Of a stretch of 64,000 nucleotides of DNA, positions 8,083 to 32,511 are shown in pieces. This stretch comes from Acidisphaera sp. S103 (GTDB lineage Bacteria; Pseudomonadota; Alphaproteobacteria; Acetobacterales; Acetobacteraceae), in contig NZ_LMUJ01000072.1 of assembly GCF_009765975.1 (NCBI RefSeq), forward strand, positions 11,838 through 75,837. Reading direction: 5' to 3'. The notes below the pieces were generated by a model. It had not been told where the DNA came from and searched no databases. It saw only the letters and a list, made by a program, of their open reading frames with translations. The translations under genes and the position numbers were made by a program. Positions within the stretch are counted from its first letter, which is position 1. The number at the start of each line of letters is the position of its first letter.

Positions 8083-8199
8083 TTGGGTCAGAACGATATC
8101 GGGCGCATCGTGGGCGACGACTTCGTCAACGGCAAACTGCCCGACCTCGCCTGGGGTGTCGGGGTTGCTGAAAAGGCTGGGAAGGGCACCGACGCATGA
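8083..8199 (+). pseudogene. C-terminal relic of a DszC/SfnB-like oxidase
   Basis: An open stretch after a TAG at 8080 translates as GRIVGDDFVNGKLPDLAWGV and a short tail, ending in a TGA that overlaps the next ATG (ATGA at 8196). The GDxxVNGxxPP pattern matches the C-termini of both intact oxidases here (IGDHVINGVPLP at 4188; IIGDYAVNGTPPP at 28272). All upstream coding sequence is gone, and only 6 bases separate the relic from the binding-protein stop. It appears to be a deletion scar that keeps the old translational coupling to the monooxygenase downstream. Confidence 0.6.
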
Positions 8200-16271: not shown

Positions 16272-16872
16272 AATCTATATCCTTCGAAGTGGAAAGTACA
16301 TCACAAGTGTCATGGACATGTCCTCCGACATCTTTCGATGCGGGCCCGCACGACGTTGGGTGGCGGCCCGCGGGAAAGCTATAAGCATATTCACGACGTG
16401 GTCAACGCATAAATACGTTTGTATATCGTTAATACGGCCCGAGTGCCACGCCGAGCTAGGGTTAGTGGGATTCGGCTATGGTCAAAGCAATCGCCAAGGC
16501 AACCATGCCACGGTCCCTTCGCTTAAGGTTCATCTCCGAAGCGCTCCCACGGCTCCCTAAGATTGGCGCGGGAGATGGAGGAGCCTGACGAGCTCTGTAG
16601 AACACCGACGTATCAAAGCTGCGGCTGGAATCTTTATGCACGGTCATTTTAGGTAATTAAGTGGGCAACACTTGACTCGATAGGATAGTCGATCAAATAT
16701 GCCGCCGCATGCTGTAACGCTTGGTTACGGTTGCCGTTTCTTCCCTAAACTCGGCGACGCCTACCCGGCGTCGTCGCTTTCTTTACGAGCGGCGCGTGTC
16801 GGTCAGACAGGGAGAAGGGACATAGTGGTTGTGAAATCGATCCATGACAACCTCCCCGAACGATCCACCAGA
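16272..16872. other. Gene-poor intergenic region
   Basis: About 600 bases between the family-5 binding protein and the end of the next leftward operon. Positions 16385-16440 are AT-rich and probably hold the promoter for the ABC operon. A terminator-like hairpin lies at 16755-16773. Short open frames here show no recognisable protein. Confidence 0.45.
16755..16773. terminator. Possible terminator hairpin
   Basis: CGACGCC and GGCGTCG pair perfectly around TACCC, about 100 bases beyond the stop of the leftward beta-propeller gene. On the plus strand it is followed by a T-rich run (TCGCTTTCTTT). The leftward direction has no clear T tract, so the direction of action is uncertain. Confidence 0.35.
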
Positions 16873-17976
16873 TCAATGGCAGACCCCGTAGCTGCCGGCC
16901 AGGACGATGGCAGTCGGGTGACCTGGCATGGCGATGGACTCTGTCAGTTTGCGGCGCTGGGCGTTGATGACGGCCACTTGATCGGCATCGATCAGCGGCA
17001 AATAAAGCTTTTGGCCGTCTGGCGTGACACCACCACGCGCAGGGGTGCCAGCGAGGGGGATTTCCCCGGCCGCGTGCATCACTTCCAGGTCATAGAGCAG
17101 GACCGACTTGGCGGTTACACTCGGTATGAGTGCCAACGTATCGAACCATCCAGTATAGACAATGCTGACACCCGTGGCCGCCTTCAGCACGGTCGCGTTC
17201 TGTGCATCACCGTCACGAATGACCATCAGCGTACCGCGTTGGTTGTCCACGACCAACAGATACGCACCTGTCGCTGACGGAAAGGCAACGGTCGCCGCGG
17301 GTCCAGCAGGAATTGGAGCCAGTGGGCCCGACCGTTCCAGGTCCAGTACGCCGATCCCACCTCCGCTATCCGATTGCACGAAAAGCCGCCGGCCATCAGG
17401 CGACCGACCAAACGCCAAACTGCCACTCGGCAACCCGGTGGCAATAGCGGGATCCAACTGCCCCTTCAGGGCATCCATGACGTCGATCGCGCCAGCCTCT
17501 GCTCCAGCGAAATAAACCTTCCTGCTGTCGATGCTGAACACCATATCCCGCAGGTGCGGCAAGCCGTGCGCGGTCCCGACGATCCGGCGACGCAAAAGAT
17601 CGAGCAACACGACGTGCCCGTTTTTGGTGTCCGCCAGAGCGACCGTCAGGCCATCGCTGCTGACCGTCATGCGGCTAGGAACCAGATCGAGCGGTACGGT
17701 GCTTATCGTTTTAAGCTGCAGATCGACGATATTCACAAGCGGGCCTTTACCGTCGATCGCAAGCAGCTTGCCGATCGACGATGCGATCTCGATCTGTTTT
17801 GGTACCAGCCCAACATCGACGCTGCCAGCAATCTTGTCCGTATCCGGATCGATGTAAGGCACGACATGTTGGTCGGACAACGACACAAAAATCGCCTTGT
17901 TCGTGTCGAAAGTATCTTCATCGGCGTAGGCAGAGCTGACGAGCAGCGCAAGGAGAACGGCGAGGACAAACTTCAC
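16873..17976 (-). CDS. Exported YVTN-type beta-propeller protein
   Basis: About 367 residues. It begins at a GTG one base after the stop of the ABC ATPase gene, with signal peptide VKFVLAVLLALLVSSAYA. The rest repeats a propeller-blade pattern, for example KNGHVVLLDLLRRRIVGTAH, EAGAIDVMDALKGQLDPAIA and SPDGRRLFVQSDSGGGIGVL. Such proteins act as periplasmic binding or scaffold domains; no catalytic motif is visible. Its tight coupling to a taurine/sulfonate-type ABC system is unusual and suggests a linked periplasmic role. Function unknown. Confidence 0.75.
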   Translation of the reverse strand: MKFVLAVLLALLVSSAYADEDTFDTNKAIFVSLSDQHVVPYIDPDTDKIAGSVDVGLVPKQIEIASSIGKLLAIDGKGPLVNIVDLQLKTISTVPLDLVPSRMTVSSDGLTVALADTKNGHVVLLDLLRRRIVGTAHGLPHLRDMVFSIDSRKVYFAGAEAGAIDVMDALKGQLDPAIATGLPSGSLAFGRSPDGRRLFVQSDSGGGIGVLDLERSGPLAPIPAGPAATVAFPSATGAYLLVVDNQRGTLMVIRDGDAQNATVLKAATGVSIVYTGWFDTLALIPSVTAKSVLLYDLEVMHAAGEIPLAGTPARGGVTPDGQKLYLPLIDADQVAVINAQRRKLTESIAMPGHPTAIVLAGSYGVCH

Positions 17977-17977
17977 G

Positions 17978-18748
17978 TCAGGCCGCCAATGCGGGAACAG
18001 CACCCATGTCACGCAGAATCCGCTGGCGGATCTCGGTGAAGCGTGGGGAGGCGCGGTCGCGCGGTCGGGGCAGATCCAATGCAATCTCCTGCGTGATCCG
18101 CCCCGGATGGGGCTGCATCACCAGGACACGGTCGCTTAGATAGACTGCTTCCTCCACGTCGTGGGTCACCAGGATCATCGTCACGCGACGAGCCTGCCAG
18201 ATGCGTAGCAGTTCGTCCTGCAACCTGATCCGGGTCAACGCATCCAGCGCACCGAGCGGTTCGTCCAGCAACAGGATTTCGGGCTCACTGACCAGTCCAC
18301 GGGCGATCGCTGCGCGCTGCGCCATGCCGCCAGACAATTGGTAGGGGTAGGCCTGTTCGAACCCGGCCAAGCCAACCAGTTCGATATGCCGGTGGACCGC
18401 ATCCTGCTTGCGTTGCCGCGGCCAATTCATATTCTCAAGGCTTAGCCCGATGTTTTCCGACAGCGTCAACCACGGCAACAGCCGGTGATCCTGGAACACG
18501 ATGCCCCGGCGCAGGCTGGTACCCTGGATCGGTTCACCATCCAACAGGATCCGGCCGCGGAACGCAGCATCCAGTCCAACGATCAGTCGCAACAAGGTGG
18601 ACTTGCCGCATCCGCTGGCGCCGACCAGACTGATGAAACTACCGGGCTCGACGTCCAGGTTGATGTCGTGCAGCACGTCGAGGGTGCGGCCTTTCACTTG
18701 ATACTGCTTGCCGACATGGCGCAGGCGGAGACTCCCCTGTTCCATCAT
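17978..18748 (-). CDS. SsuB/TauB-like ABC transporter ATPase
   Basis: A 256-residue ABC ATPase with Walker A GASGCGKST, signature LSGGMAQRAAIARGL and Walker B LLLDEPLGALDALTR, typical of the nitrate/sulfonate/taurine group. It follows the permease gene by one base, and the propeller gene follows it by one base, so all are one transcript starting at 20644. Confidence 0.9.
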   Translation of the reverse strand: MMEQGSLRLRHVGKQYQVKGRTLDVLHDINLDVEPGSFISLVGASGCGKSTLLRLIVGLDAAFRGRILLDGEPIQGTSLRRGIVFQDHRLLPWLTLSENIGLSLENMNWPRQRKQDAVHRHIELVGLAGFEQAYPYQLSGGMAQRAAIARGLVSEPEILLLDEPLGALDALTRIRLQDELLRIWQARRVTMILVTHDVEEAVYLSDRVLVMQPHPGRITQEIALDLPRPRDRASPRFTEIRQRILRDMGAVPALAA

Positions 18749-18749
18749 G

Positions 18750-19577
18750 TCAGTTGCCCTCGAAACCTTGTTTCCAGCGGAGCAGGTGACGCTCCAGAAG
18801 CAATACGCCGCGGTCGATCGTGAAGCCGACGACGCCGATGATAACCATGCACACCAGCAACTGATCGGTCAGCAGCAATGCCTGAGCGCGGAAGATCAGG
18901 TAGCCGATGCCCTGCATGCCGCTGAGGCCCTCGGCCACCACGACCATTGCCCAGGCCAGGCCGGCACCATACCGGACCCCGACCAGGATGCTGGGCGTCG
19001 CGGCGGGGATAATGATGCGCCGGATGAACTGCCAGCGCCGCAGCGTCAGGACGCGCGAGAGGTCGATGTAGTCCTTCGGCACGCCGCGGATACCTTGCAA
19101 TGTGTTGAGGAACACCGGGAAAAACACGACTTTGGTGATGATGACGACTTTCGCCAGCGGCCCGATGCCGAGCCATAGGACGATCAGTGGCAGCCAGGCG
19201 ATGGCCGGAATTTGGCGGACGCCATCCAATGTGGGCCCCAGGATGCGCTGGATCGCGCGTGACAGGCCTGCGGCAGCACCGAGAAGGATTCCCAGGCCGG
19301 CGCCGTAGATAAAGCCCTGAAGCACGATCTCAATACTTGCCAGGAAATCGAGCAGGAAATCCTGTTGGGTCAACATCGTGAAGAAGGCGACCACCGTCTT
19401 TTCCGGTGTCGGCAGGAACACCGGTTTGACCCATCGCAGATGGGAGGCGAGTTCCCACAGACTTAGAATGGCGAGAGGCAGAAGCGCGCCGACCGAGATT
19501 GGCAGGCCCGCCTTGTCCACGGACGGCGGGGCGTCGGCCGGCAGCGCGGCAACGGTCAGGCTGATCGAGCCGTCCAT
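18750..19577 (-). CDS. SsuC/TauC-like ABC transporter permease
   Basis: A 275-residue inner-membrane permease with six predicted membrane segments. The family loop reads DLSRVLTLRRWQFIRRIIIP, followed by ATPSILVGVRYGAGLAWAMVV, close to SsuC/TauC proteins. It sits between the binding-protein gene (8 bases upstream) and the ATPase gene (1 base downstream). Confidence 0.9.
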   Translation of the reverse strand: MDGSISLTVAALPADAPPSVDKAGLPISVGALLPLAILSLWELASHLRWVKPVFLPTPEKTVVAFFTMLTQQDFLLDFLASIEIVLQGFIYGAGLGILLGAAAGLSRAIQRILGPTLDGVRQIPAIAWLPLIVLWLGIGPLAKVVIITKVVFFPVFLNTLQGIRGVPKDYIDLSRVLTLRRWQFIRRIIIPAATPSILVGVRYGAGLAWAMVVVAEGLSGMQGIGYLIFRAQALLLTDQLLVCMVIIGVVGFTIDRGVLLLERHLLRWKQGFEGN

Positions 19578-19585
19578 GTGCGCTC

Positions 19586-20644
19586 TCAGTAAACGCTATA
19601 TTCGCCGCCCCGGAAGAAGCGCCGGTCGACAAAGGTCTCGAGCTGCGCATCCGTCAGGTGATGGTCCGCCAGGATTTCATCGCCATGTGCAAGGTACCAG
19701 GCCTGGAAGCCTTTGACCGCGGCAACGGCGGCCGGGGCTGACGGCTCACCATTGATGAAGCTGAACGAAGACGGGTCGGTCAGGGTGAAGCGCGCGATGT
19801 CAATCGGCAGACGGCGGCCCTTGGCGACAAGTTCGACAGCTTCTTCCTGATTCTCTCGAGCCCAGGCAATGGTTCGTTCCCGCGCCTGCAGAAAGGCCTG
19901 GATCGCGCGCGGATGCTGTTCGGCGAACTCTCGCATCGCGAAATACGATACGCGTCCGGCGTCGTTGACATAGACCCCGTTGTCCGGGCTGTGCCCGATC
20001 GCCTTGACCTGACCGGATGTCCACAGCGCAGCGTTGTCCGCAGTGCCGATATGGGTGGCGGTCGCCTCGATCCGGCCACTTAACAGTGCGTTGGTCGTGG
20101 CGACGGTATTCATGATGTTGGTGAAACGGACGGCGCCCGGTTGCTTCGGCGTATCCAGGGGCACACCGGCGTCGTCCAGTATCTCGGTCGGAGAGGTCCA
20201 GCCGCAACTGACCCTGCTGGAGCCGAGAGTCTTGCCCTTCAGGTCCGCCACCGTTTGGATCGGCGAGTCCGCCAGCGCCAGGACAGGGGTCCGAGCTGGC
20301 GAGGACCGGGTCGAGAGCCATACGATGGAAGCATCGATGCCGTTGGCCTTATGGATGGTCGCCGGATACATCATGCGCTGCGCCAACGCGAGGCCGCCAC
20401 GATCCAGCAGCGCCGCCTCGGAGCCTGAAAGCTGGGTGGTGCCGGGATCGACCAACCGGACGTCGGTCGTGCCGATCCGCGCGTAGGCCTCCTGCAGGAA
20501 ACCCTTTGCGTAGGCAACGACAGTCCAGTCCTCGATCGGCAGATTGATTGAAGGCAATGGTTCTTCGCTATGCGCCGATTGCCTGATGAATCCCAGCATG
20601 AGTGCGAACGCAATCATGAGGTACACTGGCTTTTTCCACGGCAT
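19586..20644 (-). CDS. Nitrate/sulfonate-type ABC substrate-binding protein
   Basis: About 352 residues with an export signal (MPWKKPVYLMIAFALMLGF) cut near the AHSEEP region. The mature part shows LPIEDWTVVAYAKGFLQEAY, VADLKGKTLGSSRVSCGWTS and NALLSGRIEATATHIG, as in SsuA/TauA-like proteins. The ATG at 20644 is chosen because GGAGAAG lies upstream at normal spacing; an ATG eight codons earlier has none. It is the first gene of the permease/ATPase/propeller operon. Ligand probably a sulfonate or other organosulfur compound, inferred from context. Confidence 0.85.
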   Translation of the reverse strand: MPWKKPVYLMIAFALMLGFIRQSAHSEEPLPSINLPIEDWTVVAYAKGFLQEAYARIGTTDVRLVDPGTTQLSGSEAALLDRGGLALAQRMMYPATIHKANGIDASIVWLSTRSSPARTPVLALADSPIQTVADLKGKTLGSSRVSCGWTSPTEILDDAGVPLDTPKQPGAVRFTNIMNTVATTNALLSGRIEATATHIGTADNAALWTSGQVKAIGHSPDNGVYVNDAGRVSYFAMREFAEQHPRAIQAFLQARERTIAWARENQEEAVELVAKGRRLPIDIARFTLTDPSSFSFINGEPSAPAAVAAVKGFQAWYLAHGDEILADHHLTDAQLETFVDRRFFRGGEYSVY

Positions 20645-20829
20645 CGGCTTCTCCAAACACTGTTTCATTAAACCACGTTCAATAAACGCTATTACTATGG
20701 TCGTTATATACGAGTCAATTACGTGTTGTAGTTTTCAAGCGTAATATTGAAGTGGAGTTAGGCATCTCGATGCGGTTGTCTATCGCGCACCCAGGATGGT
20801 GTCCGGCAGCAACTTCTTCAACGTTTTCG
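20645..20829. promoter_or_regulatory. Short intergenic region between leftward operons
   Basis: An AT-rich stretch (about 20660-20760) upstream of the binding-protein gene at 20644 is the likely promoter region. No gene is seen, and no repeat matching the operator-like sites at 4045 or 26661 is obvious. Confidence 0.35.
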
Positions 20830-21039
20830 TCACGAAGACTTAGACCGGGATTCGAACCAATCGCAGCCCGACCGGTTCGACAGGTACACATCGTGCACGG
20901 CGCATAGGCCATCGCCATCACGGACAGAGGAAAATCCGGACCCCATGATCGCGAAGCCCGGAAACACCGCCTCCAGTTTCGCACTGTCGTTGTCGAAGTG
21001 ACGGCATGTGCCGCATCGTCCTGGCAAAACCCGTGTCAT
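20830..21039 (-). CDS. Small Cys-rich protein, putative metal binding
   Basis: A 69-residue protein starting MTRVLPGRCGTCRHFDND. Its ATG overlaps the stop of the YeiH-type transporter gene as ATGA. C9 and C12 form a CxxC pair, and C46, H49 and C59 lie in DGLCAVHDVYLSNRSGCDWF, a spacing that suggests a small zinc or iron-sulfur site. The pattern CGTCRHF...GLCxxHDxYL...SC resembles small uncharacterised proteins of proteobacteria that I recognise only loosely. Translational coupling suggests it works with the transporter. Confidence 0.65.
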   Translation of the reverse strand: MTRVLPGRCGTCRHFDNDSAKLEAVFPGFAIMGSGFSSVRDGDGLCAVHDVYLSNRSGCDWFESRSKSS

Positions 21040-22421
21040 TGCGCCAGGGATGCCCAATAGTGGCCAAATACCAACGCCGACAGCACGAATCCAAGCGCCA
21101 CATTCACGACAACGCCGGCAGAGAAAGCAATGAATGGCTTACCGCCGGCGGGCGCGAATTCGCGCAGCCGCGTGGTCAATCCGATGCTGAGAAAGCAGAA
21201 TGTGAAAGCCCAGACCCGCAACGATGTGATCGGCGCAATCAGTCCAGGCCGAATAATCGTATTGTAGTCGGCGAACGTGACATTGCGCACGGCCAGGGTG
21301 ATCAGCAGCGACGCGACAAGAAACCCAACTACGAATTTCGGGAAACGCCACCAGATCTGGCCGATATCGACGCCGCCTCCGATCTCAGCAACCTCCCACC
21401 GTGTGACGGCGATGACCGACAGAACCAATGCCCAGACACCAATCCATACGTCGCGGCCGACGACCTTGATCAACGTGTAGGACCATACGGCCTGCTCCGG
21501 CGTTCCCGCGACAGCGCCGGTCGAAGCGAAGCCGCCATAGGTTTGCGCCGCCGCGAATCCGGCCGCGTCGGCGAACTCCGAGGTTCCGATCCAGGCACCG
21601 CCAACGCCTGCAGGCAATGACAGAAAGCGAGATACCAACGGCAACACCAGGATCATGATGATCGCCCAGAGGACGACCAGGGTTATGGCGATCGGCGGAT
21701 ACTCTTTCTTCGCGCGCACAGCCCCGGCGATGGCGATCGCGGCCGAAACGCCGCAGACTGCTCCGCCTGCCCCGAGCGTGGCGGCAAGCCGCTTGTCCAG
21801 TCCGAGGTATTGCGCGGTGAAGAAGATCACCAGGAAGGTTACGATAGAGACGATCGATGCCTGCAGGATCGCCACCGGTCCCGCCCAGACGATCAGAGTA
21901 AATGGCAGCGTCGCACCCAGCAGCACGATCCCTAGCTTGACGTAGAATTCGACCCGGAATCCGGCATCGAGCCAACGCGGCAGGCCGATCACGTTGGAAA
22001 TGATCAATCCGCCGACAAGGGCGATCAGCGGCGGCTCCAGATTATAGAAGATCGCCCGATCCCATGCGCCCGCCGCGATCACCATGACCGAAAGCACGTA
22101 AACCAGAACGAACCCCAATACGAAATGACGAACCGAATAGCCGATCGCGGACGCAGCGATGCTGAACAGGCCGAGGAAAACACCGAATTGCACCAGGTAG
22201 CGGACAGCGTTTGCCTCGAAATGCCCGAATAGCTGAGGAAACGTGGACCATTTCGGTGGAGAGACCGCCAGCCAGGCGATGCTGGAGCCGTTCACGAACA
22301 AAGCGTAGGCCACCAGCGAAGCGCCCAGACCCAGCCACACAGCCCACCAGTCTTCCTTCCGCCACAGTTCGGTCCAGCCGGCACTACTGCTTTGTGTGAC
22401 TGTCGACTGCTGCACGCTCAT
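21036..22421 (-). CDS. YeiH/UPF0324-type putative sulfate or sulfite exporter
   Basis: A 461-residue membrane protein with about ten or more hydrophobic segments, of the YeiH (Cons_hypoth698) family often annotated as sulfate exporters. Characteristic stretches are VKLGIVLLGATLPFTLIVWA, ATLGAGGAVCGVSAAIAIAG and WIGTSEFADAAGFAAAQTYG. It is longer than a typical YeiH (about 340-350) because of an N-terminal extension with two or three extra membrane segments. It lies in an ATGA-overlapping operon with an SsuA-like binding protein and the Cys-rich protein. Export of sulfite from C-S cleavage is a reasonable inference. Confidence 0.82.
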   Translation of the reverse strand: MSVQQSTVTQSSSAGWTELWRKEDWWAVWLGLGASLVAYALFVNGSSIAWLAVSPPKWSTFPQLFGHFEANAVRYLVQFGVFLGLFSIAASAIGYSVRHFVLGFVLVYVLSVMVIAAGAWDRAIFYNLEPPLIALVGGLIISNVIGLPRWLDAGFRVEFYVKLGIVLLGATLPFTLIVWAGPVAILQASIVSIVTFLVIFFTAQYLGLDKRLAATLGAGGAVCGVSAAIAIAGAVRAKKEYPPIAITLVVLWAIIMILVLPLVSRFLSLPAGVGGAWIGTSEFADAAGFAAAQTYGGFASTGAVAGTPEQAVWSYTLIKVVGRDVWIGVWALVLSVIAVTRWEVAEIGGGVDIGQIWWRFPKFVVGFLVASLLITLAVRNVTFADYNTIIRPGLIAPITSLRVWAFTFCFLSIGLTTRLREFAPAGGKPFIAFSAGVVVNVALGFVLSALVFGHYWASLAQ

Positions 22422-23512
22422 GCCAGGACATCCTTGTAAATCCGGCTGGCGAACCGTACGGGATCGGTGGATGGCTTCAGGACGCCGATCAGTTTCATAT
22501 CGGTGATATAGACGGCCAACTCATCCTTCAGAATGGGCGTGGAAGGATGGTGATGATGGGTATGCTGCCGTAACATGTCCGCCAGATCGGCCGCCGGCAC
22601 GGGCGAATACTGGGCGAACACGGTCCCGGCGTCCAAGGGGTCGTTGGCGACATGCTCCGCGGCTTCCAGGATTGCCTGGGTGATGGCGGCAGCGGTCGCA
22701 CGTTCGTTTTCGATCAGGGTGTTGCGAATTCCCAGCACACAGCACGACAGCGTCCGATAGGGCCCATCCAGATTGGTATTGATCGTGATCAGTTCACCGT
22801 TGCTGCGCTTTTCAACAATGTTGACGTTGGGATCAGCGTCGGCGATGGCGTCGATCTCGCCTTTCTGAATGGCCAGACCGAGCACCTCACCGGGATAGGC
22901 GCGCCATTGCACATCGGAATTCGGATCGATTCCCAATTTCGTAAGTTGGATGGCATAGAAGTTCTTTGCGGCGCTGATCATGCTGGTGGTGCCGATGGTT
23001 TTCCCGCGTAGCTGGGACAATTCCTTGATCCCGGATTTCACCGGGGCCAGCAGATGAATGCATCCACCGTGGACACCTGTCGTGAAGCTGACTTGCAAAC
23101 CCTGCTCCAGCGGCTTCAGCCACTGGAGAGCGAAACTGACACCGGCATCGGTTTTCCCGGTGGCGATCGATTCCAGGATTTGGTCCTGCGCGCCGCTGAA
23201 GTTCACGATCTCCACATCCAGGCCGTGCTTATCGAAATATCCGCGATGCAAGGCCACCGGAACTGAACTGGTGCAGACACCAGTGCCGCTCCAGGCGAAA
23301 CGGATCGGCTTCCGGGGTGAAAGGATTACGGGTGCGGCCAGCGGCGGCGCCACTGTATCGGCCACGTGGCAAATCGGCGCCGTATCGATCAGGGCGCCAC
23401 CACCGACACGAGACGCGCCGAACGCTCGGGTGGCTGCATACCCGAACGGCGCCGTAGCACCTATACCAAGCGCGGACCGCACGAGTGTCCGCCGATGCAG
23501 GGGAAGTGTCAT
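22418..23512 (-). CDS. SsuA-like substrate-binding protein without local permease
   Basis: A 364-residue binding protein. The N-terminus MTLPLHRRTLVRSALGIG is a twin-arginine-like signal. The mature part has RFAWSGTGVCTSSVPVALHR, LDVEIVNFSGAQDQ, LSQLRGKTIGTTSMISAAK and IQKGEIDAIADADPNV, typical of NMT1/SsuA proteins. It lies between the ferredoxin gene (15 bases upstream) and the YeiH-type gene (ATGA overlap). No permease or ATPase is in this operon, so it either shares a transporter encoded nearby or delivers its ligand to the operon's own membrane protein. Confidence 0.85.
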   Translation of the reverse strand: MTLPLHRRTLVRSALGIGATAPFGYAATRAFGASRVGGGALIDTAPICHVADTVAPPLAAPVILSPRKPIRFAWSGTGVCTSSVPVALHRGYFDKHGLDVEIVNFSGAQDQILESIATGKTDAGVSFALQWLKPLEQGLQVSFTTGVHGGCIHLLAPVKSGIKELSQLRGKTIGTTSMISAAKNFYAIQLTKLGIDPNSDVQWRAYPGEVLGLAIQKGEIDAIADADPNVNIVEKRSNGELITINTNLDGPYRTLSCCVLGIRNTLIENERATAAAITQAILEAAEHVANDPLDAGTVFAQYSPVPAADLADMLRQHTHHHHPSTPILKDELAVYITDMKLIGVLKPSTDPVRFASRIYKDVLA

Positions 23513-23527
23513 TGCGATTCTCCTTGT

Positions 23528-23848
23528 TCAGGCGGGGGGAAGAAGCTGATAGCTTCGATCGTTGCCGCGAAGATGACGCGCCGGCTTGCTCCAGCCGATC
23601 GCCCTGCGGTAGCTGCCCAGAACATCGGCAAGGGCGTGTTCATCAACCGGTTCGATACCCGTGGTATGGGGCGAAACGTATAGCGCATCCTCCGGACAGT
23701 AGAGTTCGCACATGAAACATGTCTGGCAGTCATTCTGACGGGCGACCACGGGGGCGGCGCCGGCGACGCGATCGAACACATTCATCGGACACACCTGGAC
23801 GCAGATATTGCATTCGGTGCAGCGTTCGGTGCTGACGAGTTCGATCAT
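23528..23848 (-). CDS. AprB-like 2[4Fe-4S] ferredoxin subunit
   Basis: A 106-residue ferredoxin with two CxxCxxCxxxCP clusters: C10, C13, C16, C20 in CTECNICVQVCP and C41, C44, C47, C51 in CQTCFMCELYCP. The ATG at 23848 overlaps the flavoprotein stop as ATGA, so the two are co-translated and probably form a complex in which the ferredoxin passes electrons to or from FAD. This arrangement resembles AprA-AprB of adenylylsulfate reductase, but it is shorter than AprB and no other dissimilatory sulfur gene is present. Confidence 0.82.
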   Translation of the reverse strand: MIELVSTERCTECNICVQVCPMNVFDRVAGAAPVVARQNDCQTCFMCELYCPEDALYVSPHTTGIEPVDEHALADVLGSYRRAIGWSKPARHLRGNDRSYQLLPPA

Positions 23849-25428
23849 GCGGCAAGCCCCTGTTCCGCCCGCTCGACCGGCGGCAACGGCCGCACCCACA
23901 CCTTATCCAATCCACCGCTGGCAAAGGCATGACGCTGAGTTGGGTCGGTCCCGGTATGATCCAGCCGCCGATGCATGCCGCGCGTTTCCGAACGCGCCAG
24001 GGCACTGCGATACATCCATCGCGCCGTTGCCAGCATTGCCACGGCTTCCCGCGCTTTCGAAGCCTCGGAGCGGGCAGCAGGCGACGCGCGACGCGCTTCA
24101 TGCCAGTGATCATCCAGCACGGTCAGGGCTTTTTCCAGCCGGTCACCGGTTCGGAAATAGTTGGTTTCGTACGGAAACACCTGGCTTTGCACCACGCGAA
24201 CAAGCGCCTGCGGGTCCATCGCGAAGCCGCCACCCCCAACCAGCGCCGCCCCGCCGCTACGATGCACCGCGCGGCGCGTCACCGGCCCGCTGGCACGCGC
24301 ATGGTCCGCCGCCCCGCGTCCAGCCCAATGACCGGACGACATTGCCCAGGCAGCGTTGTGGCTTCCGCCCCCGGTGAACCCGCCGCAGATCAGCTCGCGG
24401 GTCGCCGCATCGCCGGCCGCGTAGAGGCCAGGGACCGAGGTGGCGCAGCTCTCGTCGATGATGCGCAGGCCGCCGGTGCCACGAACCGTCCCCTCAAGCC
24501 GCAGGGTCACCGGAAAGCGCTGGGTGAAAGGATCGATACCAGCCCTATCGAATGGCAGGAAGAAATTGGGCTGGGCGACACGCATGGTCGCCTGTGTCGC
24601 ACCGTCGGCCTTGTCGATCTGGGCATAGACCGCTCCGCGTTGCAGCCATCGCGCAATCACCGACCGGCCGCCTTTCGACGAAGCCCCCGGAATGGCGGCG
24701 CCAGAGGGCGCGGTGAACGTCGCCCAATTGTAAAACAACGTTTTGGTCACGGATGCGAAAGCCGGTGCAATAGCGTAGGCGTTGGAAAACTCCATTCCGG
24801 AGAATTCCGCGCCTACTTCAGCCGCCATCAGATAGCCATCGCCGGTCAAGACGTTACAACCGAGACCATTGCTGAGGAACGCACAACCGCCGGTCGCGAT
24901 CACCACCGCCTTCGCCCTGCCGGTCCAGGCCGCATCCTTCTGACGGTAGACACCGGCCGCACCGGCAACCGCCCCGTGTTCATCCACCAACAATTCCAGC
25001 GCCGGTGCCTGATCCATGATACGCACCCCGGCGCCTTTGACCCGACGGCGCATCAACCGCATATACTCGGGTCCTTGCAATGAATTGCGGCGTGGCGCGC
25101 CGTCCTGGTCCAACGGAAATGGATAGCCCCATGCAGCGATTTCGTTGACGCCATGCCACGTGCGATCCAAGACCCGCGCCATCCAGGCAGGATCGGCGAG
25201 GTGACCACCCAGAGTGTCGCGACTGTCCATGGCGGCCTGACGCTTCGCGGGATCGGGCGGCACATACCAGACGCCGGTTCCGGCCGCTGCTGTCGCCCCG
25301 GAACTGCCACAGAAACCTTTATCGGCCAACACCACGCGCGCGCCACCGGATGCCGCGGTCAAGGCGGCCCAGGTTCCGGCAGGACCGCCGCCGAGAACAA
25401 GCACGTCGGTATCGAAGTCGCCGGCCAT
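23845..25428 (-). CDS. AprA/fumarate-reductase-like FAD flavoprotein
   Basis: A 527-residue flavoprotein. The FAD dinucleotide motif is VLVLGGGPAGTWAALTAA near residue 9. Other family regions are CGSSGATAAAGTGVWYVPP, AVVIATGGCAFLSNGLGCN and the C-terminal FAD-side GLYAAGDAATRELICGGFTG. The tail has the helical AprA/SdhA-type domain. AAGGA lies 8 bases before the ATG. The typical fumarate-reductase catalytic HRLGxNSL stretch is replaced by GGGSHNAAWAMSSG, closer to AprA-like proteins. With the ferredoxin, the SsuA-like protein and the exporter it suggests a redox step on a sulfur oxyanion or organosulfur substrate; this is inference. Confidence 0.8.
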   Translation of the reverse strand: MAGDFDTDVLVLGGGPAGTWAALTAASGGARVVLADKGFCGSSGATAAAGTGVWYVPPDPAKRQAAMDSRDTLGGHLADPAWMARVLDRTWHGVNEIAAWGYPFPLDQDGAPRRNSLQGPEYMRLMRRRVKGAGVRIMDQAPALELLVDEHGAVAGAAGVYRQKDAAWTGRAKAVVIATGGCAFLSNGLGCNVLTGDGYLMAAEVGAEFSGMEFSNAYAIAPAFASVTKTLFYNWATFTAPSGAAIPGASSKGGRSVIARWLQRGAVYAQIDKADGATQATMRVAQPNFFLPFDRAGIDPFTQRFPVTLRLEGTVRGTGGLRIIDESCATSVPGLYAAGDAATRELICGGFTGGGSHNAAWAMSSGHWAGRGAADHARASGPVTRRAVHRSGGAALVGGGGFAMDPQALVRVVQSQVFPYETNYFRTGDRLEKALTVLDDHWHEARRASPAARSEASKAREAVAMLATARWMYRSALARSETRGMHRRLDHTGTDPTQRHAFASGGLDKVWVRPLPPVERAEQGLAA

Positions 25429-25632: not shown

Positions 25633-26607
25633 TCAGGAAATCGTGTTGAATAGCTCGCCCACCAATGGACGCGCAACGAAACCATCCGGGCCGATCGACA
25701 GATCACCGCCGACTGTGGTGCGATGGACGATCCGCTGCTCTTTCAGATGCGGCCCATCGACTGGTCCGAAATGGCTCGTCGAACGATTGTCCCACACCGC
25801 AATGGAACCGGGCGCCCAGCGGAAGCGCACCTGGTAGTCTGCATGCCCGCTGAGTTCCTCGTTGAGATAATCCAGTAGCGCGGCGCTTTCACTGGGCTGC
25901 AATCCGTCGATCGCCTTGATGAAGCCGGTGCTAAGGAACAGCGCCTTGCGGCCAGTTTCGGGGTGAATCCTGACCAACGGATGCAACGATGCAAACGGCC
26001 CGGGCGCTCGGCCATCATAACGCGGCGGCCGAGGCAATCCGTTCGCGGCATCATCACGCACGTGGATCGCGTGCAGCCCATCGAGGAAGCCCTTCAGCGG
26101 CGTCGACAGGCCGTCATACAGCGCCTCCAGATCCGCCCACACCGTATCGCCGCCATACGATGGGATTTCGACGCCACGTAGAATGGTGATCGCGGCGGGA
26201 TTGGCGACAAAGGTGATATCAGTGTGCCACCCCCTGCCCTTCCGCGAGCGGGATACCGGCCGCAACGGATGGTCCGCGTCCAGGCGGAACGTCGGATATT
26301 CCTGGATCCCGCCGAACAGCTTGTTGACCTTGATCTCGGGGCGTTCTTCCAGACCGTTGGTGACGGGATGCGCGGGCGTGACCGCACCAAAATAACGCGT
26401 GAAACGAATCTGCTGGTCGTCGTCGATCGACTGGTCACGAAAAAACAGGACCTTGTACTTCAGCAGCGCCTGCCGCAAACGCGAGACGGTTTCTGCATCG
26501 AGTTCGTGGCGCAGGTCAATGCCGCTTACATCGGCGCCGATTAGCGCCGTCGTGGGATGGAATCGCAAATCCGAAGTCACGGCTGGCCGGTCCAACGTTA
26601 ACGACAT
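25633..26607 (-). CDS. TauD/TfdA-family Fe(II)/2-oxoglutarate dioxygenase
   Basis: A 324-residue dioxygenase. The iron-binding HxD is in GWHTDITFVANP and the distal histidine in TSHFGPV or QRIVHRTTVGGD. The N-terminal HPTTALIGADVSGIDLRHEL and the FRDQSIDDDQQIRFTRYFG stretch are typical of TauD, which releases sulfite from taurine. The ATG at 26607 is preferred because AGGAGGAA lies directly upstream; an earlier in-frame start has no such site. It heads the leftward operon region with the flavoprotein-ferredoxin genes and is divergent from the monooxygenase at 26878. Substrate probably a sulfonate or sulfate ester. Confidence 0.87.
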   Translation of the reverse strand: MSLTLDRPAVTSDLRFHPTTALIGADVSGIDLRHELDAETVSRLRQALLKYKVLFFRDQSIDDDQQIRFTRYFGAVTPAHPVTNGLEERPEIKVNKLFGGIQEYPTFRLDADHPLRPVSRSRKGRGWHTDITFVANPAAITILRGVEIPSYGGDTVWADLEALYDGLSTPLKGFLDGLHAIHVRDDAANGLPRPPRYDGRAPGPFASLHPLVRIHPETGRKALFLSTGFIKAIDGLQPSESAALLDYLNEELSGHADYQVRFRWAPGSIAVWDNRSTSHFGPVDGPHLKEQRIVHRTTVGGDLSIGPDGFVARPLVGELFNTIS

Positions 26608-26660
26608 GTCTTCCTCCTCAGAGTGTGGAGATACATTACGCACGTCTTAGACGCTAATCA

Positions 26661-26749: not shown

Positions 26750-26878
26750 GTGAACGACGTCGCCTTGCCCGAACTGCGACAGATTTATGATCCGATCGCC
26801 AAAGCCGCTGCCGCGCCCGATACGGATCGGATGCATCCGCTGGCTTCGCGCAAGCCCGTCAGGTTAGGTTTCTTTTGA
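26750..26878 (+). CDS. Short ORF coupled to the monooxygenase, possible UGSC-like N-terminal relic
   Basis: A GTG-started frame of 42 codons (an ATG 20 codons earlier is in frame) whose TGA overlaps the ATG of the monooxygenase as TGATG, so its translation would feed that gene. The product reads LPELRQIYDPIAKAAAAPDT then HPLASRKPVRLGFF. The pattern of DPxAxA...APRPxSLxGxxxGxxDN seen at the start of UGSC-family proteins is similar, so this may be the N-terminus of such a gene after deletion. That identity is tentative; it could also be a leader peptide. Confidence 0.35.
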   Translation: MNDVALPELRQIYDPIAKAAAAPDTDRMHPLASRKPVRLGFF

Positions 26879-28218
26879 TGGACCGGCGCGAACTGCATCT
26901 GAACATCAACATTCTTAACGCCGGCTTCCACGCCGCTGCCTGGCGGACGCCATCCAGCGACCCGGCTGCGTTTGTCAATGTCCGGCACTATGTCGAAGTG
27001 GCCAAGATCGCCGAGCGGGGCACGTTCGATGCGGTCTTTCTGGCCGACACGCCCAGCTTTGCCGACCGTCCCGACTACCGCCCCTACCAGGCGTTGGAGC
27101 CGACCATCGTGCTGGCGACCATCGCCGCCGCGACCGATCGGATCGGCCTGATTGGAACCGCCTCCTCAACCTACAACGATCCATACAATCTGGCACGCCG
27201 GTTCGCCACGCTGGATCTGGCAAGCGGCGGCCGGACGGGTTGGAATGTCGTTACGACAGCCGATCCCGGCGCATCACGCAATTTCGGCTTCGACAATGTC
27301 ACCGCGCACCGTGACCGTTACGAACGGGCTGCGGAATTCTGCCACGTTGTAAAGGCGCTTTGGGACAGTTGGCAGGATGACGCGCTGGTCGGCGACAAGG
27401 CTACCGGCCAATTCGTCGATGTCGCCCGCGTGCACCCCATTCAGCACGCCGGGCATCATTTCAAGGTACGGGGTCCGCTAAACGTACCGCGTTCCCCACA
27501 AGGCCAGCCCGTGCTGATCCAGGCCGGCGGGTCGGAAGACGGCCGCAACCTGGCCGCGCTACATGCCGAAGCGATCTTCTCGGTCGCCCAGACCGAGGCT
27601 GATGGGCTGGAGTTCGCCCGCAACATCCGAACCCGAGCCGAACGTTTCGGCCGCACCGGGCCGATCGTGTTCCTGCCTGGTCTGGCCACAACAATCGGCT
27701 CGACGGAGGCCGAGGTGAAGCAGCGGGAACAAGCGCTCTGGGACCTGCTGCCGACTGAATACAGCATTGGACGCATCGCCGGCCTGCTGCAGATCGATCC
27801 CGATCGTCTGGAACTCGACAGGCCCTTGCCGGACAATGTGTCGATACCGGAACATGGCATGCAAACCTTCGCTGCCGCCACGCTTCGCGTCGCGCAGCAG
27901 GATCGTCTGACGCTGCGGCAATTGCTACGCAAGCTGGGCGGCGGCACAGGTCACCGCTTGCTGACCGGGACACCTGAACAGATCGCCGATGATATCGAGC
28001 GATGGTTCCTGTGCGGCGCCGCCGATGGCTTCAACCTGATGCCTGATGTGTTGCCCGAGGGGTTGGAGACGTTCGTCGATCATGTCGTTCCGATATTGCG
28101 ACGGAAGGGCATCTTCCGCCACCGATACACCGGTCATACTTTACGAGATCATTTCGGTCTTGTCCGGCCCGGCGACAGTCTCGCGGCACAACGGCGCACG
28201 ATCGCATCAGCAGCTTGA
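26878..28218 (+). CDS. NtaA/SnaA/DszA-family FMNH2-dependent monooxygenase
   Basis: A 446-residue luciferase-like monooxygenase beginning MDRRELHLNINILNAG. Family segments are IAERGTFDAVFLADTPSF, LDLASGGRTGWNVVTT, VRGPLNVPRSPQGQPVLIQAG and LTGTPEQIADDIERWF. The ATG at 26878 sits in a TGATG overlap with the short upstream frame. It is followed by a DszC/SfnB-like oxidase and an SsuD/SfnG-like monooxygenase, a three-gene oxidative unit in which successive flavin-dependent steps on one sulfur compound are plausible. Confidence 0.88.
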   Translation: MDRRELHLNINILNAGFHAAAWRTPSSDPAAFVNVRHYVEVAKIAERGTFDAVFLADTPSFADRPDYRPYQALEPTIVLATIAAATDRIGLIGTASSTYNDPYNLARRFATLDLASGGRTGWNVVTTADPGASRNFGFDNVTAHRDRYERAAEFCHVVKALWDSWQDDALVGDKATGQFVDVARVHPIQHAGHHFKVRGPLNVPRSPQGQPVLIQAGGSEDGRNLAALHAEAIFSVAQTEADGLEFARNIRTRAERFGRTGPIVFLPGLATTIGSTEAEVKQREQALWDLLPTEYSIGRIAGLLQIDPDRLELDRPLPDNVSIPEHGMQTFAAATLRVAQQDRLTLRQLLRKLGGGTGHRLLTGTPEQIADDIERWFLCGAADGFNLMPDVLPEGLETFVDHVVPILRRKGIFRHRYTGHTLRDHFGLVRPGDSLAAQRRTIASAA

Positions 28219-28271
28219 ACATCGTTGATAACAGTAACCGGAGCGACAATGAACAGCAAGGATTTGCGTCC

Positions 28272-29498
28272 ATGACCATGGCCGCCAACGCGTGGGGTAC
28301 TCCGCCCTCGCTGACCTATGACCGCCTCGCCGAACCGTTTCGTCCGATTTTTCAGCGCATCGCCGCAGAGGCCGTACAACGGGACCGCGAACGGCGATTG
28401 CCCCATGACCAACTCGCTTGGTTGCGACAAGCCGGCTTCACGGCCCTTCGGATTCCGGTCGAACACGGCGGTCTGGGGGCCACATTGCCCGAGTTGTTCG
28501 GCTTATTGTCCGAACTCGCGGAAGCCGACTCCAACCTGACGCAGGCGCTGAGAGCGCATTTCGGCTTTGTCGAAGATCTTCTGAACACCGCGGATACGGC
28601 GTGGCGTGACAGGTGGTATCAGCGGATCGTCGCTGGTGAAACGGTTGGCAGCGGCTGGAGCGAGACCGGCAACGAGACGGTCGGCAAGCTGTCGACAACC
28701 CTGACCCGGGACGGGGATCACTGGCGGATCAACGGTCAGAAGTTCTACACGACCGGTTCGTATTTTGCCGACTGGATCGGTGCCGGCGCTGTCGACGGCG
28801 ACGGCGATACCGTTTCGGCCCTGGTTTCCACCAGAGCCGAGGGCGTCGATGTGATCGACGACTGGGACGGCTTCGGCCAGAAGATGACCGGCAGCGGAAC
28901 AGCGAAATTCGCCGACAGCCCGGTCGACGACGACCAGGTCCGCCCGGCGAGCGAACGGTTCGTGTATCGCATCGCATTCTTCCAGCTTGTCCACCTCGCC
29001 ACGTTGGCCGGCATCGGACGGGCGGCGGCGAATGAGGTCGCGCAAGCGGTCGCGGAACGGCCACGCACTTATTCGCACGCCGCGGCCGCCGCCTCCCGCC
29101 AAGACCCGCAAGTGCTTCAAGTCGTCGGACGGGTGCGCGCCTTAGCCTATGCCGCCGGCGCCATCGTGGCCAAGGCCGCACAGGCCACACAGACCGCCTT
29201 CGAAGCAGGACAGGGCACCGACGCGGGCCTGGCCCTGGCTTTGTCCGAGATCGAGGTAGCCCAGGCGCAGGTGGTCGTCCCGCGCCTCATCCTTGACGCA
29301 GCGACGATCTTGTTCGATGCGCTCGGTGCGTCGGCCTCGCGCGGCTCCCGAGGATTTGATCGTCACTGGCGAAACGCGCGGACCCTGTCGTCACATAATC
29401 CGCTCATCTACAAAGAAAGAATCATCGGTGACTATGCCGTGAACGGCACGCCGCCGCCACTGACGTGGTTCGCCGAAGAGAAGATCGCTGCTGAATAG
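28272..29498 (+). CDS. DszC/SfnB-like acyl-CoA-dehydrogenase-family oxidase
   Basis: A 408-residue paralogue of the oxidase at 4188, with RRLPHDQLAWLRQAGFTALR, KFYTTGSYFADWIGAGAV, VIDDWDGFGQKMTGSG and FDRHWRNARTLSSHNPLIYK. The ATG at 28272 has AAGGA about 10 bases upstream; a second ATG two codons later is possible. An eight-codon open frame begins at 28250 and ends just across the start, so reinitiation may affect expression. Located between two monooxygenase genes in the same direction. Confidence 0.86.
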   Translation: MTMAANAWGTPPSLTYDRLAEPFRPIFQRIAAEAVQRDRERRLPHDQLAWLRQAGFTALRIPVEHGGLGATLPELFGLLSELAEADSNLTQALRAHFGFVEDLLNTADTAWRDRWYQRIVAGETVGSGWSETGNETVGKLSTTLTRDGDHWRINGQKFYTTGSYFADWIGAGAVDGDGDTVSALVSTRAEGVDVIDDWDGFGQKMTGSGTAKFADSPVDDDQVRPASERFVYRIAFFQLVHLATLAGIGRAAANEVAQAVAERPRTYSHAAAAASRQDPQVLQVVGRVRALAYAAGAIVAKAAQATQTAFEAGQGTDAGLALALSEIEVAQAQVVVPRLILDAATILFDALGASASRGSRGFDRHWRNARTLSSHNPLIYKERIIGDYAVNGTPPPLTWFAEEKIAAE

Positions 29499-29516: not shown

Positions 29517-30578
29517 ATGCCACAGTACGACCTACGCTTTGGAATATGGACGCAGGTTTATGGTGCGTCCGGATCCTTCTTCCACCCACAGGATCCGCCG
29601 GACGCCTCATGGGAGCGCAACAAGCGCCTTGTGCTGCAGGCAGAATCCCTCGGCTTCGAATCAACGCTGGTCGCCCAACATCTCTTCAATCCCCGCGATG
29701 ACGAGCGCGATCAGTTGGAGACTTGGACGGCGAGCACGGCACTCGCCGCCGTGACCAGCCGGATCGAGATCATCGCCGCGATCAAGCCATATCTGTTCCA
29801 TCCGGTGGTGCTGGCCAAGATGGCAAGCCAGATTGAGGAGATCAGTCACGGACGCTTCGCCATCAACCTCGTGAACGCCTGGTTCAAGCCAGAGCTGGAA
29901 CGAGCAGGTATCGCGTTTGCTGACCATGATGATCGATATGCCTACGGACGGGAATGGATTGAGGTCGTCCGGGCGCTGTTTCGGGGCCATCGGGTCAATT
30001 TCGCTGGCAACCATTTCAACATCGAAGACTATCAAATCCGCCCGGTGGGACGGTATCGCGAACGGCCCATCATCTATGCCGGCGGCGAATCGGAACAGGC
30101 ACAGGCCCTTGCCGCGGATACTGCCGATATCTGGTTCATCAATGGCCAGCCGCCGGATGATGTTCGCCGCCTCATTGGTGCCGTCGCCGCACGTCCCAGG
30201 CATGAAACGCCCATTCGTTTCGCCTTGTCGGCCTTCGTCGTTGCACGCGAGACAACCGCCCAGGCCGAGGATGAACTACGCTATCTGTTCAGTCTTTCCC
30301 AGCAGGATGCGCCGCTGCGTCAGGCAATGGCGGGCCGAACCGACCCGAAGGCCGTGATGTTCAAGACGTTCGCGCGCAATCCCGCGTTCGGCAGCAATGG
30401 CGGCACGGCCGCCGGCCTGGTCGGCAGCTACGACACCGTCGCGGCACGAATCCGGCATTTCGCTGACCTTGGAATTGAAACCTTCATGCTGCAGTTCCAA
30501 CCCTTCGAGGCTGAAATGGCGCGATTCGCCAATGAGGTTCGTCCCCGCGTCGATCGGCTGACCAAAACCGCTGCTTGA
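29517..30578 (+). CDS. SsuD/SfnG-like FMNH2-dependent monooxygenase
   Basis: A 353-residue luciferase-like enzyme, the length of alkanesulfonate (SsuD) and dimethylsulfone (SfnG) monooxygenases. It shows MASQIEEISHGRFAINLVNA, WFKPELERAGI, ERPIIYAGGESEQAQALAAD and a C-terminal GLVGSYDTVAARIRHFADLG. Enzymes of this group cleave C-S bonds to release sulfite or sulfinate using reduced flavin. It lies 18 bases after the oxidase gene and is probably the last gene of the operon. Whether it prefers sulfones or sulfonates cannot be judged from sequence. Confidence 0.85.
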   Translation: MPQYDLRFGIWTQVYGASGSFFHPQDPPDASWERNKRLVLQAESLGFESTLVAQHLFNPRDDERDQLETWTASTALAAVTSRIEIIAAIKPYLFHPVVLAKMASQIEEISHGRFAINLVNAWFKPELERAGIAFADHDDRYAYGREWIEVVRALFRGHRVNFAGNHFNIEDYQIRPVGRYRERPIIYAGGESEQAQALAADTADIWFINGQPPDDVRRLIGAVAARPRHETPIRFALSAFVVARETTAQAEDELRYLFSLSQQDAPLRQAMAGRTDPKAVMFKTFARNPAFGSNGGTAAGLVGSYDTVAARIRHFADLGIETFMLQFQPFEAEMARFANEVRPRVDRLTKTAA

Positions 30579-31612: not shown

Positions 31613-32386
31613 CGGTATCGCCGCGGCTTTCAATACACCACTGGCCGGCATCGTATTCGGAATTGAAGAGATGAGCCGAGCCTTCGACGTCGCCTCCAGC
31701 GGCTTGCTGATTGTCGGCATCATTGCCGCTGGCCTGACTTCTCTGACTCTGCTCGGCGATTACACTTATTTCGGCACGACTGCGGCGACGCTGCACGTGG
31801 CATCCGGATGGCTGCCGCGCCTGTATGCGGTGTCCTTGGCGGGCTGCTCGGGGGTATATTCAGCCGCATCCTGATCGAAGTGGCCGCGGGACTTCCAGGA
31901 GCAGTGAGGCGAGCGGTCAGTCGTCATCCAATTCTGTTCGCCCTGGTGTGCGCATTGGACACGGCTGTTTGTGGCCTCGCCTCCGGGGACACGATCTATG
32001 GCACCGGCTACGGCCAGGTCAAGGCGCTCCTGGACCATGGCGTGCCTCTGCCGCAGTCCTTTGGTTTGTTGAAGATGATTGCAACGACGCTGGCTTCGAT
32101 CAGCGGGATCCCGGGCGGGATCTTCTCCCCTTCTCTGGCGGTTGGTGCGGGGATCGGGTTCAACGTCTCAGGCCTTTTTCCCGGGACGCCCGTGGCGGCG
32201 GTGGTCCTGCTCGGAACGGTGGCCTACTTCGCAGGCGTGGTTCAGGCGCCAATCACGGCGTTCGTCATCGTCACGGAGATGACCAACGACCACGCAATGG
32301 TCATCCCAATGATGACCGCGGCCTTCATCGGCTACGCGACGTCGCGGCTGGTCTTCCCGGAGGGCGTCTATCACGCTCTGTCCTAG
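31612..32386 (+). pseudogene. ClC chloride channel, truncated and frameshifted
   Basis: The plus strand picks up a ClC protein in the middle: GIAAAFNTPLAGIVFGIEEM is the conserved GxFxxP-type region. It continues to LGDYTYFGTTAATLHVASG, then shifts frame near 31805-31815 to CGVLGGLLGGIFSRILIEV, GYGQVKALLDHGVPLPQSFG and GIPGGIFSPSLAVGAGIG. The C-terminus is intact up to the stop at 32386. The N-terminal third and start are lost at the junction with the binding-protein fragment. Not expected to function. Confidence 0.8.
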
Positions 32387-32511
32387 AACTTCCTTGCCAC
32401 CGCGCGCTCGCTAGAAGCCCCTTTGCCCAGCCTAAACTACAACTCTGAGCCTCCTGATGGAGGGCCGGGAGCGCCGTTGCCTCCGCTCGCGAACCTACAC
32501 GGTTAGGTAAC

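Follow-up and report, generated by a model that had tools for sequence, protein, structure and literature searches.

A 64,000-nucleotide stretch of Acidisphaera sp. S103 (hereafter the window) carries, at positions 20830..25428, five adjacent minus-strand genes that encode a redox pair, a sulfonate-type binding protein, a divergent PF03601 membrane protein that we call YeiH2, and a small protein with four cysteines. In 5' to 3' gene order they are the following.

23845..25428, minus strand: AsfA-type flavin adenine dinucleotide (FAD) flavoprotein, 527 residues; Pfam FAD_binding_2, 68 bits (cut-off 20.4)

23528..23848, minus strand: AsfB-type 2[4Fe-4S] ferredoxin, 106 residues; Fer4 families; 4-base overlap with the AsfA gene

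22418..23512, minus strand: SsuA/NMT1-type periplasmic binding protein, 364 residues, in the AsfC position; Pfam NMT1, 74 bits

21036..22421, minus strand: YeiH2, divergent PF03601 (Cons_hypoth698) membrane protein, 461 residues, putative exporter

20830..21039, minus strand: four-Cys (CxxC) protein, 69 residues; 4-base overlap with the YeiH2 gene

The successive junctions measure -4, +15, -4 and -4 bases, so that three of the four overlap by four bases, much as a preliminary description made from the sequence alone had stated, and all five genes have an ATG start, a TGA stop and zero internal stops. Among the matches listed (the 25 best in the case of the flavoprotein and the ferredoxin), none of the five proteins reached an NCBIfam cut-off. 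The preliminary description took the five genes for a single undescribed system, an idea that we reject: the order was found at none of the 25 AsfA loci outside the window, although at two of them the redox pair lies close to YeiH2 and the small gene in another arrangement, and the redox pair matches AsfA and AsfB as already known from the accessible parts of the literature (PMC4267179, PMC2864759). The operon splits into two modules, an AsfAB pair and a YeiH2/four-Cys pair, and it is the recurrence of each pair elsewhere that speaks against a chance arrangement of the five genes. AsfAB is of an already known kind, and the novelty lies in its combination with the YeiH2/four-Cys pair. The preliminary description gave the dissimilatory sulfur genes sat, dsr and qmo as absent, a negative that covers the window, since no search aimed at them was made in the whole genome.

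Sequence comparison identifies the flavoprotein and ferredoxin as an AsfAB pair, the arylsulfonate redox genes. In a tblastn search, the window AsfA had a sole match on the Cupriavidus metallidurans CH34 replicon NC_007974, 68.2% identical over 97%, with a ferredoxin gene next to it at a 4-base overlap, the same as in the window. According to the available sections of the CH34 genome paper, this replicon carries asfRAB, with Rmet_4334/5 as AsfA/AsfB, a reductase-ferredoxin pair (PMC2864759); we infer that our match is Rmet_4334, the CH34 record having no locus tags. The accessible portion of a review reports that asfA transposon mutants of Pseudomonas putida S-313 could no longer use aromatic sulfonates but still used aliphatic ones (PMC4267179), and asfA serves, in the parts of two sources available, as a field marker for aromatic-sulfonate desulfurization (PMC9694294, PMC4267179). 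The flavoprotein search of the Acidisphaera genome itself gave 5 matches, and of the two listed the second spans residues 8-212 only.

A tblastn search of plasmids with the flavoprotein matched 68 records, 59 with a single place covering at least 80% and 22 at 60-80% identity, and the carriers across all identity bands include Azospirillum, Cupriavidus, Shinella, Paracoccus, Bradyrhizobium, Paenibacillus, Pseudonocardia, Nocardia and Nostoc. A ferredoxin match adjoins AsfA in all 26 loci compared (window included), and a binding protein and ABC (ATP-binding cassette) genes each lie within 8 kb of AsfA in 20 of the 26, which supports, though not firmly, the sulfonate setting proposed earlier; LLM/SsuD (9 loci), TauD (6), SfnB (6) and YeiH2 (3) were also found near AsfA. 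Nine of the 26 loci also supplied reference proteins, and the 17 not used in this way retain the ferredoxin (17/17), the binding protein (12/17) and the ABC genes (14/17). All 15 AsfB sequences aligned share the eight cluster cysteines of the two 4Fe-4S motifs. At 1e-100 or better, a family-wide search found AsfA in 6 of 150 genomes; a class-wide search at 1e-90, with 3 candidates scored per genome, found it in at least 2 of 385 (own genome included), and a scan of viral contigs returned 1 relative. On a Paenibacillus cellulositrophicus plasmid (L026, 7974-12944) two AsfAB pairs flank one binding protein, the second AsfA being just 49% identical to that of the window. In Sphingobium yanoikuyae (L035) a luciferase-like (LLM) monooxygenase gene and the AsfA gene (15543-16895 and 13951-15546) overlap by four bases on one strand, and this monooxygenase is a candidate for an enzyme that works with AsfAB.

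YeiH2 and the four-Cys gene, as judged from their sequences and neighborhoods, are a conserved two-gene pair of their own. On plasmids the small protein had 3 matches (E 0.01), each directly downstream of one of 3 close YeiH2 relatives, and an order-wide search placed YeiH2 in 9 of 250 genomes at 1e-20, own included. Across 11 YeiH2 loci (these nine and two from plasmids) a small reading frame lies within 700 bases in nine, the two without it belonging to one genus. From a scan of genome contigs we kept the best 80 of at least 595 YeiH2 relatives, and of the 76 of these loci that no contig end truncates, 54 have the small gene directly after YeiH2, 52 of them recognized by a motif script and two (L061 and L068) by BLAST. 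The script demands C, C, E, S, C and C and allows an earliest start 20 bases before the YeiH2 stop; in a control it was positive in 3 of 2538 windows. At the 52 script loci the start picked for the small gene lies between 19 bases upstream and 89 bases downstream of the YeiH2 stop, with 28 overlapping YeiH2 and 21 doing so by exactly four bases. Two contig loci repeat other loci (L124 equals L050, and L066 lies within L047).

By phylum, the small gene is present in Pseudomonadota (40/41), Bacteroidota (4/4), Nitrospirota (4/4), Verrucomicrobiota (2/2), Thermodesulfobacteriota (2/2), Binatota (1/1) and Myxococcota (1/4), and it was not found beside YeiH2 in Bacillota (0/14), Methanobacteriota (0/2) or Actinomycetota (0/2). 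A tree of 81 YeiH2 proteins requires four changes between presence and absence of the small gene, compared with 19.4 in shuffles. Four Bacillota loci (L108, L112, L134 and L136) each hold two YeiH2-like matches, and the four-Cys gene was not found at any of them. Among 398 genomes of the window's phylum, YeiH2 (1e-90) and the small protein (1e-4) occur in the same 11, own included, and are adjacent on one strand in all 11 (Fisher p about 1e-21, kinship ignored); at most 4 candidates per genome for YeiH2 and 14 for the small protein were scored, among the matches listed, and some of the 398 genomes may also have fed the search profiles. The Acidisphaera genome encodes a second PF03601 protein, yet only one small four-Cys protein, and the 3.9 kb searched around the second PF03601 gene do not contain the four-Cys motif.

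In 53 sequences of the small protein C9, C12, E23, G28, S34, C46 and C59 are invariant, for most of these columns partly because the motif script required them. Since its four cysteines are conserved, the protein likely holds a metal or cluster site. No Pfam family matched the window protein at E 0.001, and the 53 members could not be assigned to any family in Pfam or NCBIfam. Several searches touched on high-potential iron-sulfur proteins (HiPIPs). In a PDB profile search HiPIPs scored E 0.49 to 0.78, behind an unrelated helicase at 0.13; in Pfam a single one of the 53 members matched HPIP_like (E 0.33), with DUF6011 (0.0012), DUF7140 (0.0017) and Zn_ribbon_NUD (0.0092) scoring better, and PF01355 (HiPIP) was not among the Pfam matches of the 53; NCBIfam gave the 4-hydroxyphenylacetate decarboxylase small subunit at E 0.0073 in 3 of 53. 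With a predicted model (mean predicted local distance difference test [pLDDT] score 73.8), Foldseek ranked 2y8n_B, which we take to be the HiPIP-like small subunit of that decarboxylase, first of four (E 0.51) and 1hlq_C third (E 8.2). An hhalign comparison with 16 HiPIPs, from which L205, L208, L210, L216 and L217 had been dropped, reached a probability of 18.8% (E 0.0013) over 17 columns around the CxxC only, against 0.2% for a ferredoxin control. We do not accept HiPIP membership on these matches, which are weak and in no case significant; equally weak ones point to zinc ribbons or domains of unknown function. The four-Cys protein is apparently undescribed: no account of a small-protein partner of YeiH was found in the literature searched, although this is weak evidence, the search having covered mostly papers outside subscription, among them partial texts of PMC12880088, PMC10102598 and PMC5373536.

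YeiH2 contains the whole PF03601 domain (137.7 bits, gathering cut-off 24.5), about 97 residues with hydrophobic segments precede its match to the YeiH model TIGR00698, and a PDB sequence search with it gave zero matches at E 1. By analogy, its likeliest role would be sulfite export, a view based on the phenotype of Salmonella yeiH, on the genes upstream of YeiH2 and on the neighbors from desulfonating families in the window. In the available text, a Salmonella yeiH deletion is sulfite-sensitive and its authors suggest a transport function (PMC12880088). Ten hand-picked upstream neighbors of YeiH2 include three sigma-54 response regulators, one rhodanese and one sulfite/nitrite reductase domain protein. 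The regulators, at L073, L091 and L122, recall the two-component genes by DVU0543 in the accessible part of PMC10102598, and a nitrite/sulfite reductase domain protein lies upstream of YeiH2 on an Eggerthellaceae contig (L137:7873-8928).

The same neighborhoods could be read otherwise, with YeiH2 and the four-Cys protein as a stand-alone stress module that is only housed in the operon and whose substrate is unrelated to sulfonates. Most sampled YeiH2 neighbors are unrelated (among 92 taken from rough gene predictions, each Pfam family matched at E 1e-8 occurs in at most 5), and sigma-54 response regulators make up 3 of the 10 hand-picked ones; against this, L035 and the Paraburkholderia oxyphila locus L094 also join the pair with asfAB, in other gene orders, and 4-base overlaps tie it into the window operon. 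We consider this explanation possible, though doubtful.

The relationships of AsfA bear on what the redox pair might do. We built a maximum-likelihood tree of 43 rows (20 AsfA, four AprA, the alpha subunit of the 3'-phosphoadenosine 5'-phosphosulfate [PAPS] reductase 8a8o, SdhA, fumarate reductase [Frd], NadB and Frd-like proteins; unk_L149 was dropped beforehand). The 20 AsfA rows form one clade with support of 100/100, and a split supported at 98/94 sets AsfA, AprA and the PAPS reductase apart from SdhA, Frd, NadB and the Frd-like proteins. Approximately unbiased (AU) tests reject the grouping of AsfA with SdhA/Frd (p 0.019), with NadB (p 0.035) and with the Frd-like group (p 0.030), the last having been picked once the tree was known. 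The HGANR motif occurs in 0 of 20 AsfA rows versus 8 of 9 Sdh/Frd/NadB rows, and HYx[MC]GG in 0 of 20 versus 7 of 9; both are also missing from most Frd-like rows. We take the His of HYxM(C)GG and the Arg of HGANR to be dicarboxylate-site residues of Frd, SdhA and NadB. A fumarate reductase or an aspartate oxidase was considered for the flavoprotein and set aside on the AU tests and the missing dicarboxylate-site motifs, and the tree shows no firm grouping with either.

The AprA/AprB-like character claimed in the preliminary description is supported by the tree and AU tests, though not firmly; in profile searches AsfA matches SdhA (1.1e-33) and FrdA (3.2e-32) above PAPS reductase (1.1e-26) and AprA (3.8e-19). 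Its NCBIfam scores are 106.6 bits for TfrA (cut-off 718), 89.2 for NadB (639) and 43.6 for AprA NF005331 (557), and its Pfam matches cover the FAD motif near the N terminus and the C-terminal domain of the Frd type. The eight AsfA rows shown have a gap in place of the AprA loop (approximately RPRSTGEG.GR.WY, KPNNPGAARHKMWY in PAPS reductase), which presumably carries a Trp near the FAD and substrate. Because the Frd motifs and the AprA loop are missing, AsfA seems to be neither a fumarate reductase nor an adenosine 5'-phosphosulfate (APS) reductase. An AlphaFold model of AsfA based on three sequences (mean pLDDT 45.6) was too poor and was not used. A link between AsfA and AprA was not found drawn in the literature searched, again weak evidence from mostly nonsubscription papers that include partial texts of PMC10441942, PMC8557817 and PMC13352529.

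These relationships leave some room for AsfAB as a catalytic complex like AprAB or PAPS reductase instead of a source of electrons for an oxygenase, with electrons moving between AsfB and the FAD and the FAD acting directly on the sulfonate sulfur group or the ring, an interpretation that we hold only tentatively and think rather less likely than not to be correct. The 8a8o alpha subunit matches AsfA over its full length (positions 13-510), the 104-residue PAPS reductase beta subunit matches AsfB at 4.9e-11, the 98/94 split unites AsfA with AprA and PAPS reductase, the eight AsfB cluster cysteines are invariant, and the Pfam matches listed for AsfA do not include a separate NAD(P)H reductase domain, though PF07992 (Pyr_redox_2) passes its cut-off (43.9 versus 26.1 bits, residues 8-184). 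The SdhA and FrdA profiles, however, outscore those of PAPS reductase and AprA, polyferredoxins are the best solved matches of AsfB (3e-19) ahead of the PAPS reductase beta subunit, and the AprA loop, altered in PAPS reductase, is missing from the AsfA rows shown; the AsfA and AprA/PAPS reductase branches are moreover long (1.6 and 1.3 changes per site) and may attract each other.

Quite improbable, in our estimation, is a further proposal, near to that of the preliminary description, in which AsfAB works like AprAB in reverse, oxidizing the sulfite released by the monooxygenases, and YeiH2 exports sulfate. It would fit the AprA-like tree placement, the neighbors from sulfonate-cleaving families and the NCBIfam name of the transporter family, putative sulfate exporter. 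It fits poorly with the absent FAD-near loop and the AprA model score far under its cut-off, and also with the asfA mutants, which in the available part of the review keep the use of aliphatic sulfonates, substrates that should release sulfite too (PMC4267179).

Around the operon, the window encodes further proteins of sulfonate-related families.

25633..26643, minus strand: TauD-type dioxygenase, 204 bases upstream of the AsfA gene; ATG start possible at 26607

26875..28218, plus strand: LLM flavin monooxygenase, divergent, candidate desulfonating enzyme

28215..29498, plus strand: SfnB-like protein, divergent; 299.5 bits, under the TIGR04022 cut-off of 430.9

17978..20668, minus strand: sulfonate/nitrate-type ABC transporter (a second binding protein, a permease and an ATPase); begins 161 bases downstream

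Another LLM protein is also encoded divergently, beside the LLM monooxygenase and SfnB-like genes. The binding protein of the operon had been called an orphan, which holds insofar as no permease is among the five genes and gives way to the ABC transporter genes 161 bases downstream; this transporter (17978..20668) could serve the protein encoded at 22418..23512. None of the binding proteins beside the other asfAB pairs examined is a close relative of that protein. Its closest plasmid relatives are Paraburkholderia proteins, 52% identical, and on the Paraburkholderia caribensis MBA4 replicon a relative lies about 440 kb away from the AsfA gene. The 64-kb window holds five luciferase-like monooxygenase genes in all (2421-3767, 8196-9560, 9619-10935, 26875-28218 and 29517-30578) and a rhodanese gene at 775-2424, and with its five LLM genes, the SfnB-like protein, TauD and the rhodanese it looks like a sulfur-scavenging island. 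Elsewhere in it, a gene for a ketosteroid-dehydrogenase-like FAD protein overlaps an HpaX-like permease gene (38285-41235, both under their model cut-offs), a beta-propeller reading frame (16873-18084; PQQ_ABC_repeats 58 bits, cut-off 287) overlaps the end of the ABC ATPase gene, and a partial CLC chloride channel lies with a partial IS240-type transposase at 31808-33194, perhaps relics of mobile DNA close to the sulfur genes.

We favor, with moderate confidence, a reading of the operon as a two-module sulfur-scavenging unit that combines sulfonate uptake, oxygenolytic desulfonation with AsfAB, and sulfite removal by YeiH2 and its partner. The analysis itself shows the genes and how they overlap, the conservation of both pairs and the tree; the substrates, the direction of transport, the enzyme that cleaves the C-S bond and what the small protein does we infer from the gene families and their neighbors. 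A sulfonate would be imported by the binding protein with the neighboring ABC transporter, and the TauD or luciferase-like monooxygenases would cleave its C-S bond to yield sulfite. AsfB would donate electrons to the AsfA FAD or accept them from it, and the need for AsfA in the use of aromatic sulfonates is taken from the published transposon mutant in another species, P. putida S-313. YeiH2 would then export the excess sulfite, or a like oxyanion, from desulfonation, and the four-Cys protein, probably a metal- or cluster-binding subunit, would be required for the working or regulation of YeiH2. Both modules occur together in three loci, the window, S. yanoikuyae L035 and P. oxyphila L094, lying on opposite strands in L035 and on the same strand in L094.

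Several observations weigh against this interpretation. YeiH2 was found in 0 of the 23 AsfA loci that were found independently of YeiH2 (window excluded), and AsfA in just 1 of the 80 YeiH2 contig loci (the best 80 of at least 595). The identity of AsfA was reached by way of CH34 and not by comparison with the AsfA of P. putida S-313. The window binding protein may not be AsfC, because it is 22% identical to the one beside the Azospirillum asfAB genes and has no detectable similarity to the CH34 binding protein; a LysR (AsfR) gene was not found within 8 kb of the window AsfAB, in searches with two LysR references and a scan of the remaining frames, although a regulator may be encoded elsewhere. 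YeiH2 scores well under the YeiH model TIGR00698 (73.2 versus 232.6 bits), and of five relatives three score 76 to 98 bits and two are not listed at E 1e-20. We take the PSE family to be the family of PF03601. Import of an oxyanion by YeiH2 is also possible, because a Desulfovibrio PSE-family transporter beside a two-component system is detrimental under molybdate, according to the accessible sections of PMC10102598.

The placement of AsfA beside AprA and PAPS reductase offers a concrete in vitro test of the AsfAB reaction. YeiH has been tied to sulfite resistance only recently, as far as the available text of PMC12880088 goes, and the YeiH2 subfamily with its co-occurring four-Cys partner, which lies outside Pfam and NCBIfam, gives a handle on how such transporters work; the YeiH2/four-Cys pair merits follow-up in its own right. 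A more far-reaching idea, which we think unlikely, is that YeiH2 and the four-Cys protein form an obligate two-subunit sulfite exporter across many Gram-negative phyla, the small protein sensing or reacting with sulfite through a metal or HiPIP-like 4Fe-4S site, and that this exporter would serve an AprAB-like AsfAB that acts catalytically on the sulfonate and is not an electron supplier.

Among known systems, the operon most resembles asfRABC of P. putida S-313 and C. metallidurans CH34, as far as these are covered by the sources available, in its AsfA (68% identical to the CH34 match) and in the binding protein gene next to the redox pair; it differs in having no LysR gene within 8 kb, a binding protein that is no evident orthologue, and an appended YeiH2/four-Cys pair. 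Like AprAB, AsfAB combines an FAD alpha with a 2[4Fe-4S] beta subunit, and in the tree AprA with PAPS reductase is the nearest clade to AsfA, whereas AsfA falls far short of the AprA model (43.6 against 557 bits), lacks the FAD-near loop and has 527 residues versus 626 to 670 in four AprA proteins. The PAPS reductase of Methanothermococcus thermolithotrophicus (8a8o), which has an assimilatory role and is 38% identical to Archaeoglobus fulgidus AprA in the accessible part of PMC10322725, shares with AsfAB a full-length alpha-subunit profile match and a small beta subunit of 104 residues, but joins AprA at 100/100 and not AsfA. The small protein is like HiPIPs and 2y8n_B in being a small four-Cys protein with weak matches to them in four separate searches, and unlike them in its Cys spacing and the lack of a significant match. 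YeiH2 shares the whole PF03601 domain with YeiH and differs from it in scoring under the YeiH cut-off, in its N-terminal extension of about 97 residues and in having a small partner gene of its own.

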